From positions 1-34,118 of the forward strand of contig JBBDWV010000026.1 of assembly GCA_040902655.1 (NCBI GenBank): 34,118 nucleotides of DNA, given 5' to 3'. Position numbers and translations under genes: made by a program. The notes under the pieces were generated by a model that saw only the letters and a list, made by a program, of their open reading frames with translations, did not search any database and was not told the origin of the DNA. The DNA is from Mycobacteriales bacterium (GTDB lineage: Bacteria > Actinomycetota > Actinomycetes > Mycobacteriales > SCTD01). Shown piece after piece: positions 747-10,100 of this stretch (its first letter is position 1; every line of letters starts with the position of its first letter).

Positions 747-908
747 GAGCGGCGGCAACACCGAAAGGCGCCCGTCCACAAGCGCTCATGGCGGGGCTTT
801 CGCGACCACGGGGTGATGCGATCGCCTTGGTCACTGCCTGCCGCTGGCCCATCGTCAGTCCCACGATCAGGACCTATCGGCAGGCTACTCACCAGCCAGG
901 CAGGCACG

Positions 909-972
909 CTGTACGCGCGCATCGCTGAATGAGGCAACGACCACCCTTACGCGCGCACTTTTGGTGAGCCAA
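909..972. repeat. Degenerate 36-bp-period repeat, right copies
   Basis: TACGCGCGCA occurs at 912-921 and 948-957 (36 bases apart). TGAGGCA at 930 and TGAGCCA at 965 are 35 bases apart. The stretch 929-968 aligns with 6-45 at roughly four of five positions. Together with the left copy it brackets the membrane-protein gene. The rest of the 747-1003 gap shows no convincing gene. Confidence 0.55.
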
Positions 973-1003
973 CGCGAACCGGCACAGCAACGACCGTGCG
1001 CCA

Positions 1004-1306
<303 letters not shown>

Positions 1307-1743
1307 TCAACTGCGCCTGAGTGCGTCGTCTTCCCGTACGGGTACGGGTGTCGCGACCTGTGCCACGGTGCGCAGAGCTACGTGCAGGCGGAGCCCGGCG
1401 GCGGCGGTCAGTGCGGCCACGACCGCGATCGCGGGGAGGGCCCCGAGCCGGTCGCTGACGAGGCCGGCGATGAGAGCTCCGGCGAGGTAGCCGAGGTCGC
1501 GCCAGGGTCGGTACACCCGAGGGCTGCCGGTCGGTCGCTGGGTCCGACGAGGTCGGTGATCGCGGCGAGCACCATGAGTGGGCGCCGAGCAGGAGCAGCG
1601 GCACGGCTGTGCGCTCGACGCCGATGGCCGCGCCGAGGAAGGCGTAGACGACGACGAGCAGGCCGAACCGCGCTGAGTTCTCACGCGGTCCGAGCCGGAT
1701 CTCGCCCGCCGTCGCCCGGGCGCGGCCACCTGCCGTGCCACGT
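1307..1743 (-). pseudogene. Decayed MFS transporter: both ends kept, middle lost, two frameshifts
   Basis: Three reading frames must be joined to follow one transporter. The N-terminal piece (about 1590-1690) reads RFGLLVVVYAFLGAAIGVER, a typical first transmembrane helix. The frame then changes near 1576-1590 to a piece reading MVLAAITDLVGPSDRPAALG. It changes again near 1514-1522 to the C-terminal piece YRPWRDLGYLAGALIAGLVS, which matches the late helices of major facilitator permeases, and ends at the stop at 1307. A complete permease needs about 400 residues, and only about 140 codons are present, so roughly two thirds of the gene is missing. It sits between the dioxygenase gene and the regulator, where persulfide operons often carry a sulfite or sulfur transporter. 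I infer that it once exported a product of the pathway. Assembly error is a possible alternative for the frameshifts. Confidence 0.75.
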
Positions 1744-3141
1744 TCACGCTGGCGTCGTCACGACCGGCAGGCCGGCGCCTTCGGCCTCGTTGAACGCCCC
1801 GATCACGGCGGTCACGTCCTTGCCGGCCGCGTCGAGGATCGACGCGGCGATGGTGGCGCGGAACCCGCCGGCGCAGTGCACGTGCACCGGCTGGTCTGCC
1901 GGGACCTCGTCCGTGCGGTCGAGCAGCTCGTGCAGCGGGATGTGCACGGCCCCCTCCACGTGTCCGTCCTGCCACTCGGCGTTGCGGCGGACGTCGAGGA
2001 TGAGGACGTCCGGGTCCCGCTCCCGGACGGCGGCGACGTCTTCGAACGTGGCCGTACGGAAGCTGGCGACCCCGCGTTCACCGGCGAGCTGCTCGACGGG
2101 TGCCGTGGCCTGCGCGGCGGGTCGATCGATGCCGATGCGGACGAGCTCGCGCTGCGCCTCGGCGACCTGCTCGGGTGAGTCCGCGATGAGCGTGAGCGGG
2201 GTGCCCCACGGGATGAGCCAGCCGAGGAAGGTGACCATGTTGCCGTTGGCGTCGAAGCTGTAGCTGCCGGGGACGTGACCGCGGGCGAAGGCGGTCCGGT
2301 CGCGCAGGTCCACGACCCACTCGCCGGCGTCGACGCGGCGGCGCAGCTCGTCGGCGTCCGCGTGGTGCACGGGTGACAGGTCGACCGGTGCCGGTCCGGC
2401 GAGGTTGGTCGGGCCCATGTGGACGTAGTACGCGGGATAGGCGTCGAACCCGTCGAGCAGACTGCGGACGAAGTCGTCCTCGTCCTGGGTCAGCGCCGGG
2501 TTCTGGGTGCGCTGCTGCTCGACGGTGGAGGCGTCGCCGGAGGTGGGGGTGGCCGAGCAGAAGCTCCCGAACCCGTGGGTGGGGAGCACCGCGGCGTCGC
2601 CGGGCAGCTCGTCGGCCAGGCGTCGCACGGACGCGTACTGCCGGTGGCTGAGATCCACGGTCAGCTCGGGGGACACCAGGTCGGTGCGCCCGACCGAACC
2701 GAACAGCATCGACCCGCCGGTGAAGACCATCGTGGGCCGGTCACCCCGGCCGACGGCGAACGAGACGTGGTGCGGTGTGTGCCCGGGGGTGCCCATGGTG
2801 CGGACGGTCATCTGACCGACCTGCCGGACGTCCTCGTCGCAGACCTGGGTGCGCTCGTAGTCAGCCTCGGCCTCGCACGGCACGAGGTAGGGCACGTCGG
2901 CCTTGCGGGCGAACTCGAGCCCACCGGTGACGTAGTCGTTGTGCGCGTGCGTCTCGGCGACGGCCGCCAGCTGCACGCTGCGCTGTTCGAGAACCTTCTC
3001 GATGCGGTCGATGTCGCGCTGCGGATCGATGACCAGGGCGCTGGTGCCGTCGTCGACGACGTAGCTGCGGTCGCCCAGGCTCGGTGTCTCGACGATGGTG
3101 ACGGTCAGACCGTCGCGCTGCAGGGTGCTGTGGTCGCTCAT
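1744..3141 (-). CDS. cstB: CstB-like persulfide dioxygenase-rhodanese fusion (465 aa)
   Basis: The N-terminal metallo-beta-lactamase domain (about 1-235) has the ETHE1-type signature THAHNDY at 64-70 (H65, H67, D69) and the later TPGHTPHH and LPTHG metal motifs. Two rhodanese-like domains follow. The first (about 260-360) has no Cys in its active-site loop and looks catalytically dead. The second (about 370-465) has HCAGGFRA with catalytic Cys423. The order dioxygenase, inactive rhodanese, active rhodanese is the layout of staphylococcal CstB, which oxidises low-molecular-weight persulfides to thiosulfate in the cytoplasm. Length is normal for the family. The start ATG at 3141 is preceded by GAAGGAG, and upstream codons in this frame overlap the rhodanese gene and are not coding. 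It is the best-preserved gene of its operon. Confidence 0.9.
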   Translation of the reverse strand: MSDHSTLQRDGLTVTIVETPSLGDRSYVVDDGTSALVIDPQRDIDRIEKVLEQRSVQLAAVAETHAHNDYVTGGLEFARKADVPYLVPCEAEADYERTQVCDEDVRQVGQMTVRTMGTPGHTPHHVSFAVGRGDRPTMVFTGGSMLFGSVGRTDLVSPELTVDLSHRQYASVRRLADELPGDAAVLPTHGFGSFCSATPTSGDASTVEQQRTQNPALTQDEDDFVRSLLDGFDAYPAYYVHMGPTNLAGPAPVDLSPVHHADADELRRRVDAGEWVVDLRDRTAFARGHVPGSYSFDANGNMVTFLGWLIPWGTPLTLIADSPEQVAEAQRELVRIGIDRPAAQATAPVEQLAGERGVASFRTATFEDVAAVRERDPDVLILDVRRNAEWQDGHVEGAVHIPLHELLDRTDEVPADQPVHVHCAGGFRATIAASILDAAGKDVTAVIGAFNEAEGAGLPVVTTPA

Positions 3142-3166
3142 GAGATGGCTCCTTCTGCGGTGCAGA

Positions 3167-3400
3167 TCAGTGGCCCGGGGCGCCGGTCTCGACGGGTCGG
3201 CCGCTGCGGATCCACGCGCTGGTGCCGCCGGCGACGTTGCGTACGTCGATGCCGGCCCGGTCGAGCAGCTGAGCGGCCTGGGTGCTGCGGCCGCCGCTCT
3301 GGCAGGTGACGAACACGGGCTCGCTCTTGCGCACGTCCAGGACGGTGGCGCCGGCCTCGCGGGCGACATCCAGGTCGTCGTTGGCGACCTCGGTCAGCAT
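3167..3400 (-). CDS. Small single-domain rhodanese with internal deletion (77 aa)
   Basis: The active-site loop CQSGGRS at 33-39 (Cys33) and the C-terminal NVAGGTSAWIRSGRPVETG are classic for single-domain rhodaneses, which move sulfane sulfur between persulfide carriers. The usual protein is about 100-110 residues. Here the strand LDVR at 21-24 runs straight into KSEPVFVTC, so the conserved segment with the E-Y-x-x-GHI-x-GA region is absent. The deletion is in frame and the gene keeps a strong ribosome-binding site (AAGGAGG just before the ATG at 3400). The fold is probably damaged. It is the first gene of the leftward persulfide operon, 25 bases upstream of the dioxygenase. Translation may still matter for coupling even if the enzyme is inactive. 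Confidence 0.75.
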   Translation of the reverse strand: MLTEVANDDLDVAREAGATVLDVRKSEPVFVTCQSGGRSTQAAQLLDRAGIDVRNVAGGTSAWIRSGRPVETGAPGH

Positions 3401-3417
3401 GGTTCCTCCTTCAGAGC

Positions 3418-3455
3418 TGCAATGGCGTTAGTACCCCAGGGGGTATCCATTGCAA
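3418..3455 (-). promoter_or_regulatory. Promoter and nested palindromic operator of the persulfide operon
   Basis: A perfect inverted repeat TACCCC-AG-GGGGTA spans 3432-3445, the C-tract/G-tract form of operator used by CsoR-family repressors. It lies inside a larger 8-bp inverted repeat, TGCAATGG (3418-3425) and CCATTGCA (3447-3454). Read leftward, TTGCAA (3450-3455) and TACTAA (3428-3433) could be -35 and -10 boxes with a 16-base spacer, which would put the operator between them. The rhodanese start is about 30 bases downstream. The palindromes are seen; the promoter boxes and the regulator pairing are inferred. Confidence 0.7.
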
Positions 3456-3551
3456 CCCCCTTCGGCCGGAAATGTTCCGGCGTCCACGGCGCCCAGCCCG
3501 TGGGCGCCAGTCCCGACGGCACGAAGGCCGGCCCTTGTGCCTGTCGGCCCG

Positions 3552-3863
3552 CTAGGAGGAGGTAGGTCGACGGGCGAGCAGCAGCGTGTCGACGGCGGTG
3601 TCCTCGCCGACCTGCCAGTCGATCTGCAGCCCACGCTCCTGCGCGCGTTGCTGTCCGCGTTGCAGCCCGACCGGGGAGAAGTCCAGCGCCGTGACCGTCC
3701 AGCCGCGCGAAACCAGCCACAGCGACATCCGGCCCTCACCGGCAGCGACGTCCAGCGCTCGTCCGGCGGGCACGTTCGCGAGCAGCGACGCGGCCAGCGC
3801 GTTCGGTTCGTCCGACCACTGCTGAGCGGCGGCGTACCTGTTGTCCCAGTCCTCAGCGCGCAC
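3552..3863 (-). pseudogene. SAM-dependent methyltransferase, apparently lacking its centre (103 aa)
   Basis: The first 65 residues are a normal class I methyltransferase start: EDWDNRY, then the SAM-binding glycine loop LDVAAGEGRMSLWL and the acidic LDFSP that ends strand 2. After the segment ending in IDW, the protein jumps to VGEDTAVDTLLLARRPTSS, which resembles the very C-terminal strand of this family (proteins of about 200 residues). I infer an in-frame loss of roughly 90-100 residues that includes most of the substrate-binding half. The start is probably GTG at 3863, after GGAAGGGG; longer in-frame starts exist up to 3929. It lies upstream of, and in the same direction as, the persulfide operon, but is separated from it by the operator. 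Probably inactive. Confidence 0.6.
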
Positions 3864-4086
3864 GCCATGTCCCCTTCCCGGTCGAGCGACGGCGCCACCG
3901 TCGGTGCTGCCTGATCCTGGCAGTGACACCGGCCGAGTGTGCCGGAGGCGTCAGGGTGCGAGGCCGCGTCGCCGGGTGGGCGGCGCAGTCGTGCTGCCCC
4001 GCGACGACAAGGGCGACGGCGCTGTGCGGAGGTGGCAGCCGGGGCGAGACACTGAGCAACGAGTCGACGGAGAGGCGTCAGATCAG

Positions 4087-4467
4087 ATGAGCAGCGACCA
4101 CCCGGACGACGGCGAGCCAGCCGGGGAGCGGGAGCCGGACTACCGCTTCACGCTGGCCAACGAGCGCACCTTCCTGGCCTGGCTGCGGACGGCGCTGGCA
4201 CTGGATGCTGCCGGCATCGCCGCCGTGCACCTGCTGCCGCAGTTGCTCGTGCCGGGAGTGCGGGAGCTCGCCGGCGTGTCGCTGGTGGTGCTCGGCGCCG
4301 TCGTCGCCGGCGGTGCGTACTCGCGCTGGCAGTGCTACCAGCAGGCACTACGCCACGGGAGGCCGCTTCCGCCGAGCCGGCTGCCCGCGGTCCTCGTGAT
4401 CGTCCTGACCGTGGTGAGCGTGCTCGCCGTGGCGCTGCTGGTCGTCGAGTCGGCGGTCGAGTCGTGA
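4087..4467 (+). CDS. DUF202/YidH-family membrane protein (126 aa)
   Basis: The motif RFTLANERTFLAWLRTALAL near residues 19-38 is the hallmark of the DUF202 family. Three transmembrane helices follow (about 33-52, 59-80, 97-122), with RWQCYQQALRHGRPLPPSR as the loop between the last two. These short inner-membrane proteins have no well-established biochemical role. The ATG at 4087 follows a weak GGAGAGG and gives the usual family length; the codons upstream are not protein-like. The next gene, of the same family, begins inside this gene's stop codon (GTGA), so the two are translationally coupled and may form a hetero-oligomer. The 223 bases upstream are a divergent promoter region in which I see no gene. 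Confidence 0.9.
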   Translation: MSSDHPDDGEPAGEREPDYRFTLANERTFLAWLRTALALDAAGIAAVHLLPQLLVPGVRELAGVSLVVLGAVVAGGAYSRWQCYQQALRHGRPLPPSRLPAVLVIVLTVVSVLAVALLVVESAVES

Positions 4468-8084: not shown

Positions 8085-9332
8085 ATGCCGCCAGCACCGA
8101 GTGCCGCTCCCGCTGTCCCCGCGTTGCTGCACCCCTTCGCCCGACCGGCCGCCCCGGTCGAGTCGTTCATCCGCGTGGTGCGGGGCGAGGGCGCGGCGGT
8201 CTTCGACGACCGCGGCCGTCGCTACGTCGATGCCATGGCCTCGCTCTGGTACTGCAACATCGGGCACGGCCGGCGGGAGATCGGCGACGCGGTCGCGGCG
8301 CAGATGTGCGAGCTGGAGACCTACCACTGCTTCGACCGGTTCTCGGGACCCCGAGCGGAGGAGTTGGCCCAGCGGCTGTCCGACCTGGCCCCGGTTCCGG
8401 GCAGCCGGGTGTTCCTGACCAGCGGAGGCTCGGAGTCCGTCGAGACAGCTCTCAAACTCAGCCGAGCGGCGCACACCCAGGCAGGCAGCCCGGAGAGAAC
8501 GATCGTGATCAGTCGGGCACCCAGCTACCACGGCGTGACGTACGGCGCCATGGCGCTGACCGGGCTGCCGCTGAACCACGTGGGCTTCGGGGACGGCGTC
8601 GCGGACGTCGTGCAGGTCCCCAAGGACGACCTCGACGCGGTGCGGTCCGTGATGGAGGGACACCCCGGCCGGGTGGCCGCGGTGTTCGCCGAGCCGGTCG
8701 TCGGCGCCGGCGGGGTCTTTCCACCGGCGCCGGGCTACCTGCAGGGCCTGCGTGCGCTGTGCGACGAATTCGGCGCGCACCTCGTGCTCGACGAGGTGAT
8801 CTGCGGCTTCGGGCGACTCGGCAGCTTCTTCGGCGGCCAGCACTACGGCGTGCAGGCCGACCTCACCACCTTCGCGAAGGGCGTCACGAGCGGCTATGTC
8901 CCCCTCGGGGGCCTTCTCGTCGCTCCCTCCGTGCACCAGGCGCTCGCGGCCGATCCGGCGTTCGTGCTGCGGCACGGCTACACCTACTCGGGCCACGGCG
9001 CCGCGTGCGCAGCCGCCCTCGCGTGCCTGGCCATCATGGAGCGCGAGGGCCTGGTGAAGAAGGCGACGGAGATCGGTCACAGGTTGGCGCCCGCCCTGCG
9101 GTCGCTGCTGGCGGACGGGCTGGTCAGCGACGTACGCGGCGAAGGTGCCGTCTGGGCTGTGGGCGTTCCGGAGGACCAGGATCTGGTGGCGGTCCGCGAC
9201 CGGGTCCTGGACGAGGGGGTCATCGTGCGGCCGATCGCGCCGGACACCTTGGCGATGTGCCCGCCGCTGGTCATCGGCGACGAGGACCTCGACCACATCC
9301 CCGCGGCGCTACGGGCGGCGCTGACGCGGTGA
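8085..9332 (+). CDS. Class III (omega) aminotransferase, PLP-dependent (415 aa)
   Basis: A fold-type I aminotransferase of the ornithine/omega-amino-acid group. The PLP lysine is K265 in TFAKGVTSGY. VLDEVICGFGRLG carries the Asp that binds the pyridine nitrogen, and SGGSESVETALKL is the phosphate-binding turn. The N-terminal ASLWYCNIGHG is shared with putrescine and beta-alanine:pyruvate transaminases. The ATG at 8085 is chosen because GGAGAGGAG stands just before it; the frame is open further upstream but that part is not protein-like. It follows nagA after a 202-base gap, so it may be a separate unit. Its 3' end overlaps the convergent ATPase gene by 24 bases. The amine substrate cannot be predicted. 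Confidence 0.88.
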   Translation: MPPAPSAAPAVPALLHPFARPAAPVESFIRVVRGEGAAVFDDRGRRYVDAMASLWYCNIGHGRREIGDAVAAQMCELETYHCFDRFSGPRAEELAQRLSDLAPVPGSRVFLTSGGSESVETALKLSRAAHTQAGSPERTIVISRAPSYHGVTYGAMALTGLPLNHVGFGDGVADVVQVPKDDLDAVRSVMEGHPGRVAAVFAEPVVGAGGVFPPAPGYLQGLRALCDEFGAHLVLDEVICGFGRLGSFFGGQHYGVQADLTTFAKGVTSGYVPLGGLLVAPSVHQALAADPAFVLRHGYTYSGHGAACAAALACLAIMEREGLVKKATEIGHRLAPALRSLLADGLVSDVRGEGAVWAVGVPEDQDLVAVRDRVLDEGVIVRPIAPDTLAMCPPLVIGDEDLDHIPAALRAALTR

Positions 9333-10100
9333 CCGCGCCTCACGCTGCTGCTCGTCGAGCACGCGGGCGAGCTGCTGGATCGCCTGCACGGCAGGCGAAT
9401 CAGGCGCGTAATCGAGCACGCACATCCCGCGCCGGTCCGCCTCGATGACGGCGTCGTCGTGCGGAATGACCCCCAGCAGCCGACGCCCGCGCTCGGCCGC
9501 GAACTCCTCCAGCCGTGGACGGTCCGCCTCCCGGACGCGGTTCCCGACGAAGGCGACGTCGGCGATGCCGAGCTCCACCGCCAGCCGATGGGCGCGGTCC
9601 GCCGTCAGCAGCACCTTGGCTGTCGGCTGGAGCACCACGAGCAGCAGATCGGCGTACCGCAGCGTCCCGCCGGCCCAGGACAGGTGCTCCAGGCCCGCCT
9701 CCATGTCGGCGACCACGAACGCGTACGGCATGGCCTGCTCGACGTTCTCGATGAAGTCACGGACCGTGACGTGGGCACTGCCCGTTCAACCGCTGCCAGC
9801 CTTCTCGGAGCGGGCGCCCAGCAGGATCGTGACGTCGTCCGGGCCGGCCTGGCCGTAGCTCGCCAGCAGTTCGGGAGGTGTCAGGCCACTCGGGACGTGC
9901 CGCCTGGGGCCGGACTGGTCGAGCAGTGACCGCATCCGGTCGGAGTCCGCCTCGCCCAGGCCGATGCTCACGCCGAGGTTGGGGTCGGAGTCGGCGTCGA
10001 TGGCGATGACCTGCTGCCCCTCCCGGGACAGCGTCCGCGACAGCACCGCGGCGATCGTCGACTTGCCGACACCGCCCTTGCCCGCAATCCCCACCCGCAT
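9309..10100 (-). CDS. CooC/MinD-type P-loop ATPase with an in-frame UGA at codon 105 (263 codons)
   Basis: The protein begins with the deviant Walker A motif GKGGVGKST (8-16), then IDADSDPNLG (34-43). After codon 105 it continues with VVADMEAGLEHLS and LLLVVLQPTAK, exactly as in CooC-type nickel-insertion or carbon-monoxide-dehydrogenase-accessory ATPases. Codon 105 is TGA (9786-9788). Both sides are in the same frame with no shift, and 158 further sense codons follow. In the CooC family this place, just after KAGSG, normally holds a Cys of a Cys-x-Cys motif; the second Cys is Gly here. So either UGA encodes selenocysteine, or a Cys codon mutated to a stop. If it is a stop, a 104-residue fragment plus a possible restart at ATG 9731 would result. 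Start: ATG 10100, or ATG 10112 in frame. An unknown 69-aa gene lies just upstream. Confidence 0.7.
9756..9788 (-). other. In-frame UGA with downstream hairpin, possible SECIS-like element
   Basis: On the minus strand the UGA (9788-9786) is followed 15 bases later by GUCACGGUCCGUGAC (9770-9756). This is a perfect 7-bp inverted repeat around one base, which in RNA would be a 5-bp stem with loop GGUCC. A short GC hairpin (GGGC-AGU-GCCC) also lies between. The E. coli fdhF selenocysteine element has a GU in an apical loop at nucleotides 23-24 counted from the UGA; here GU falls at 25-26. The bulged U of the classical element is not visible. The hairpin is seen; its function is inference. Confidence 0.35.

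Follow-up and report, generated by a model that had tools for sequence, protein, structure and literature searches.

Streptomyces coelicolor carries a CsoR-PDO-rhodanese-sulfite transporter circuit, and the operator motif ATACCn6GGTAT comes from the work on it (PMC7533328). The erosion of bacterial pseudogenes is dominated by deletions (Kuo and Ochman, PMC2916853), and in M. smegmatis direct repeats raise precise deletions about 1,000-fold over background, the repeats in this mycobacterial deletion assay being perfect and 38 bp long (PMC3519483). Here, we describe an actinobacterial locus in which a second copy of a set of sulfur-detoxification genes is probably decaying by independent deletions, under selection that has been relaxed by redundancy.

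The window, that is, the whole stretch of DNA analysed, covers positions 1-34,118 of contig C26 (genome G000), a scaffold of 131 kb. The closest relatives of the host actinobacterium are Frankiales MAGs, and the best explanation places the locus in a Frankiales genome. A run of 100 N lies just beyond the window end (G000:C26:34119-34218), where the window stops at a scaffold gap. A short dispersed repeat, CAACGACNACCNNTACGCGCGCA, was found at positions 12-34 and 935-957, close to the beginning and the end of the first kilobase, with further copies at the end of contig C22 and on contig C50; the genome holds four copies, and the reversed control pattern gave 0.

The locus is made up of a minus-strand gene set encoding a methyltransferase, a small rhodanese, a CstB-like persulfide dioxygenase-rhodanese fusion, the remnant of an MFS transporter and a CstR-like repressor. 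All five genes are also present, and intact, on contig C43 of the same genome (methyltransferase 195 aa, CstR 93 aa, CstB 462 aa, rhodanese 106 aa, MFS 431 aa). The features of the locus in the window are:

1004..1306, minus strand: CsoR/CstR-type repressor gene, full length (100 aa); PF02583 at 3.9e-23, 65-85% identical to the CstR proteins of C43 and relatives
about 1307..1745, minus strand: MFS transporter pseudogene in which ~35-45 N-terminal codons adjoin ~85 C-terminal ones, with about 295 codons missing
1744..3141, minus strand: full-length gene (465 aa) for a CstB-like persulfide dioxygenase-rhodanese fusion; Lactamase_B plus two rhodanese stretches
3167..3400, minus strand: single-domain rhodanese shortened by 29 codons through an in-frame internal deletion, to 77 aa against 106-107 aa in intact homologues; active-site loop CQSGGRS retained
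3318..3331, minus strand: approximate rhodanese deletion junction (DVRKS|EPVFV), coordinates derived from the reading frame
3431..3446, no strand assigned: operator-like site of the CsoR type, GTACCCCAGGGGGTAT, located upstream of the genes for the rhodanese and CstB, 1 mismatch to ATACCn6GGTAT
3552..3863, minus strand: SAM-dependent methyltransferase that has lost 93 internal codons in frame and counts 103 aa, against 192-207 aa in homologues
3588..3605, minus strand: approximate methyltransferase deletion junction (WQVGED|TAVDTLL), coordinates derived from the reading frame

The components of the CstR-CstB sulfane-sulfur module, namely a CsoR-type repressor, an MBL-rhodanese fusion, a rhodanese and a CsoR-type operator-like site, are all present together. 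Judged by its genes, the locus is a second copy of the actinobacterial sulfane-sulfur detoxification module, for which persulfide dioxygenase activity and persulfide sensing are predicted. A first-pass annotation of this DNA had described the CstB-like and CstR-like genes as full length, and both are indeed complete when compared with C43 and relatives. More specifically, CstB is 71-74% identical to the proteins of C43 and the genus relatives over nearly its whole length, the alignment with the C43 protein showing 74% identity and 2 gap positions. The operator-like site occurs once in the window, and sites of the same type lie upstream of the rhodanese in loci L033, L037 and L039. The retention of CstB, the repressor and this single site suggests that the operon may still be regulated. 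In several further genera of actinobacteria, relatives of the methyltransferase are encoded only a few kilobases away from CstB loci (L047, L067, L069, L101, L031), a proximity that suggests a functional link to sulfane-sulfur handling.

The same annotation had estimated that the centres of the rhodanese and the methyltransferase, about 30 and 95 residues, were missing, and both estimates come close to the measured losses. Aligned by tblastn with L033, L037, L039 and L031, the rhodanese matches end to end with one 29-residue gap in each case. When the comparison was widened to 80 loci of other genera, homologues that match the whole fragment span about 97-105 columns with the centre present, the remaining ones match the second half of the fragment only, and no short form was seen. 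Since only about 25 bases separate the rhodanese from the start of the CstB gene downstream, an out-of-frame change might disturb CstB translation; the in-frame deletion may be tolerated in that it would leave translation into CstB undisturbed. From the methyltransferase, exactly 93 codons are absent in frame compared with the C43 copy, and the centre is kept by 33 of 33 related methyltransferases (192-207 aa), among which there is no short homologue.

Two shortened genes that both remain in frame could be read as encoding mini-proteins that still function and are maintained by selection. Both the catalytic loop CQSGGRS and the SAM motif LDVAAGEGR survive, and dN/dS is not raised: over the retained codons, the rhodanese gives 0.37-0.39 in comparisons with L033, L037 and C43 (0.52 against L039) and the methyltransferase 0.17-0.45, with both remnants inside the range of intact pairs. 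However, these ratios reflect the long history that preceded the deletions, and no homologue of such length was seen among the 33 methyltransferases or the rhodaneses of the 80 loci. Furthermore, judged by the protein families, the segments lost would be core parts of the two folds. We therefore consider functional mini-proteins highly improbable, and it is scarcely credible that the 77-aa rhodanese would be a working minimal sulfurtransferase, one that has its CQSGGRS loop but lacks the central third of the fold and is kept in frame under selection. Because dN/dS resembles that of intact pairs, the deletions in the rhodanese and the methyltransferase look recent on the time scale over which the lineages diverged, unless the remnants remain under constraint.

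The first-pass annotation had proposed a search for short direct repeats at the junctions, which gave a candidate for one of these two genes. As a proxy for the lost ancestor we used the C43 methyltransferase, which is about 70% identical. In this intact gene, the sequences at the two break sites, GTCGCTGACGCCAC and GTCGAGGACGCGAC, form an imperfect direct repeat with 11 of 14 bases matching, and they are spaced by exactly 279 bp, the length deleted. None of the 269 other spacings from 30 to 299 bp at the same site reaches 11/14, and such a match occurs at 1.2% of other sites of the gene. The methyltransferase deletion thus probably arose by slippage between the imperfect repeat, as read in the C43 proxy. 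At the rhodanese junction, four homologues were tested and showed no unusual match at the 87 bp spacing.

The MFS gene is damaged in a different manner. For this gene, a missing centre of about 260 residues had been proposed between two recognisable ends. Both ends are present, but the loss is larger (about 295 of the 431 residues, measured against the C43 MFS) and the deletion is not clean. The N-terminal part (about 35 residues) is 55% and the C-terminal part 54% identical to the C43 protein, and the two lie in different frames. A 1-base frameshift near 1515 appears in all eight frameshift-aware alignments, with a second frame change near 1577-1580 in most of the alignments reaching that point, and inspection of the sequence revealed no in-frame ATG, GTG or TTG at the beginning of the remnant. 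Owing to the frameshifts and the lack of an in-frame start codon, we regard the gene as a pseudogene and not as a clean internal deletion. The best support for its N-terminal end is a tblastn match of frame 0 to C43 at 3e-8, the N-terminal alignments varying with gap settings. All aligned MFS homologues possess the centre, and none of them is short. The junction is too degraded to read a deletion mechanism from it, and the gene, more decayed than the rhodanese and the methyltransferase, looks older. Taken over all three genes, the missing segment is kept by the homologues of relatives, the MFS gene being frameshifted and the rhodanese and methyltransferase lacking 29 and 93 codons in frame.

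The damage is local and is real in the sequence. Intactness was controlled at 10.6-37.3 kb of the contig, where the relatives are syntenic and their genes could be aligned to C26, and the 19 genes there show no gap above 4 residues. With three of five locus genes damaged against none of these 19, the hypergeometric probability is about 0.005, for a comparison made post hoc. The first 10 kb are non-syntenic with the relatives examined, and most genes there were compared through protein families only. The systematic assembly fault that had been suggested at first is not supported, given the intact genes further along and the lack of a long direct repeat able to collapse within 900-4200. The direct repeats in that interval are imperfect and short, none exceeding 35 nt, so that collapse by an assembler on a 55-mer is not expected, and we rejected collapse of a long repeat on these grounds. 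A broader artefact of assembly or library would leave the true genome full-length, with the segments lost from the consensus; possible causes include polymerase jumps at hairpins, or a minor variant carrying the deletions close to a contig end. The locus does lie 1-4 kb from the contig start, and positions 1-55 of C26 are identical to the end of C22, an overlap typical of a graph break and 1.3 kb from the damaged genes. The retained parts, moreover, show no decay subsequent to the deletions, as an artefact would give. Yet the MFS remnant bears further frameshifts, and both the short repeats and the intact genes further along weigh against such an artefact, which we regard as unlikely.

The clustering could also reflect a local deletion-prone process acting on the segment, through an unusual DNA structure or a deletion-generating element, as the first-pass annotation had proposed. 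Three deletions within 2.6 kb and the repeat at the methyltransferase junction are in line with this proposal, and its local aspect holds. But CstB and CstR, inside and beside the segment, are untouched, no junction motif or element common to the deletions was found, and redundancy accounts for the tolerated loss; redundancy with C43 and deletion-biased decay suffice without a special process, which we consider improbable. The accompanying argument, that gene ends should be lost more often under random decay, proved weak. The chance that a gene-touching deletion of the observed size falls inside the gene is 0.57 for the rhodanese, 0.36 for the methyltransferase and 0.19 for the MFS gene, and the argument is weakened further because deletions reaching the kept neighbours CstB and CstR would be selected against.

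A MinD-like gene at 9309-9731, with an apparent N-terminal truncation, was considered as a fourth broken gene and rejected, as its in-frame TGA is conserved in two relatives and probably encodes selenocysteine. The gene at 9348-10100 (minus strand) encodes a MinD/CooC-like P-loop ATPase, in which a single in-frame TGA falls within GSG*TGSAHVTVR. The TGA is at the identical position in G008:C1:620436-621182 and G002:C162:13884-14513, paralogues of both relatives have Cys there, and the host genome encodes tRNA-Sec and SelB. For these reasons, the gene, rather than being a pseudogene, probably encodes a selenoprotein of the MinD/CooC-like ATPase class, and it merits more attention than the deletions.

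We favour decay of a redundant second copy, recent and still under way, as the explanation of the damage. The intact set on C43 would make the accessory genes dispensable, and their loss is tolerated because they are redundant. They would erode by independent deletions, at least one of which, in the methyltransferase, was probably repeat-mediated, while CstB, CstR and the operator-like site would be kept. Several points speak against this reading: for independent events, three deletions are tightly clustered in 2.6 kb, and two of these look recent; the rhodanese junction has no significant repeat in relatives; the methyltransferase repeat is read from a proxy of about 70% identity; and C43 could be misbinned. 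As a whole, the locus illustrates how a duplicated operon can be trimmed, with erosion of accessory genes and retention of the main enzyme, the repressor and the operator.

Compared with known systems, the locus adds a modest case to a process that is already well documented, and gives no pointer to a new one. With the pseudogenes of Kuo and Ochman (PMC2916853) it shares inactivation mostly by deletions and young lesions with little accelerated divergence. The deletions here remove 27% to about 70% of a gene, whereas the predominating class in Salmonella removes 20% or less (PMC2916853), and, unlike those cases, three are clustered in one locus. The methyltransferase repeat is imperfect, matching at 11 of 14 bases, in contrast to the perfect 38 bp repeats of the mycobacterial assay (PMC3519483). 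The circuit of S. coelicolor (PMC7533328) has in common with our locus a CsoR-like repressor, a PDO-rhodanese fusion, a separate rhodanese and an ATACCn6GGTAT-type operator, whereas the copy described here differs by its MFS remnant, the methyltransferase nearby and a truncated rhodanese.
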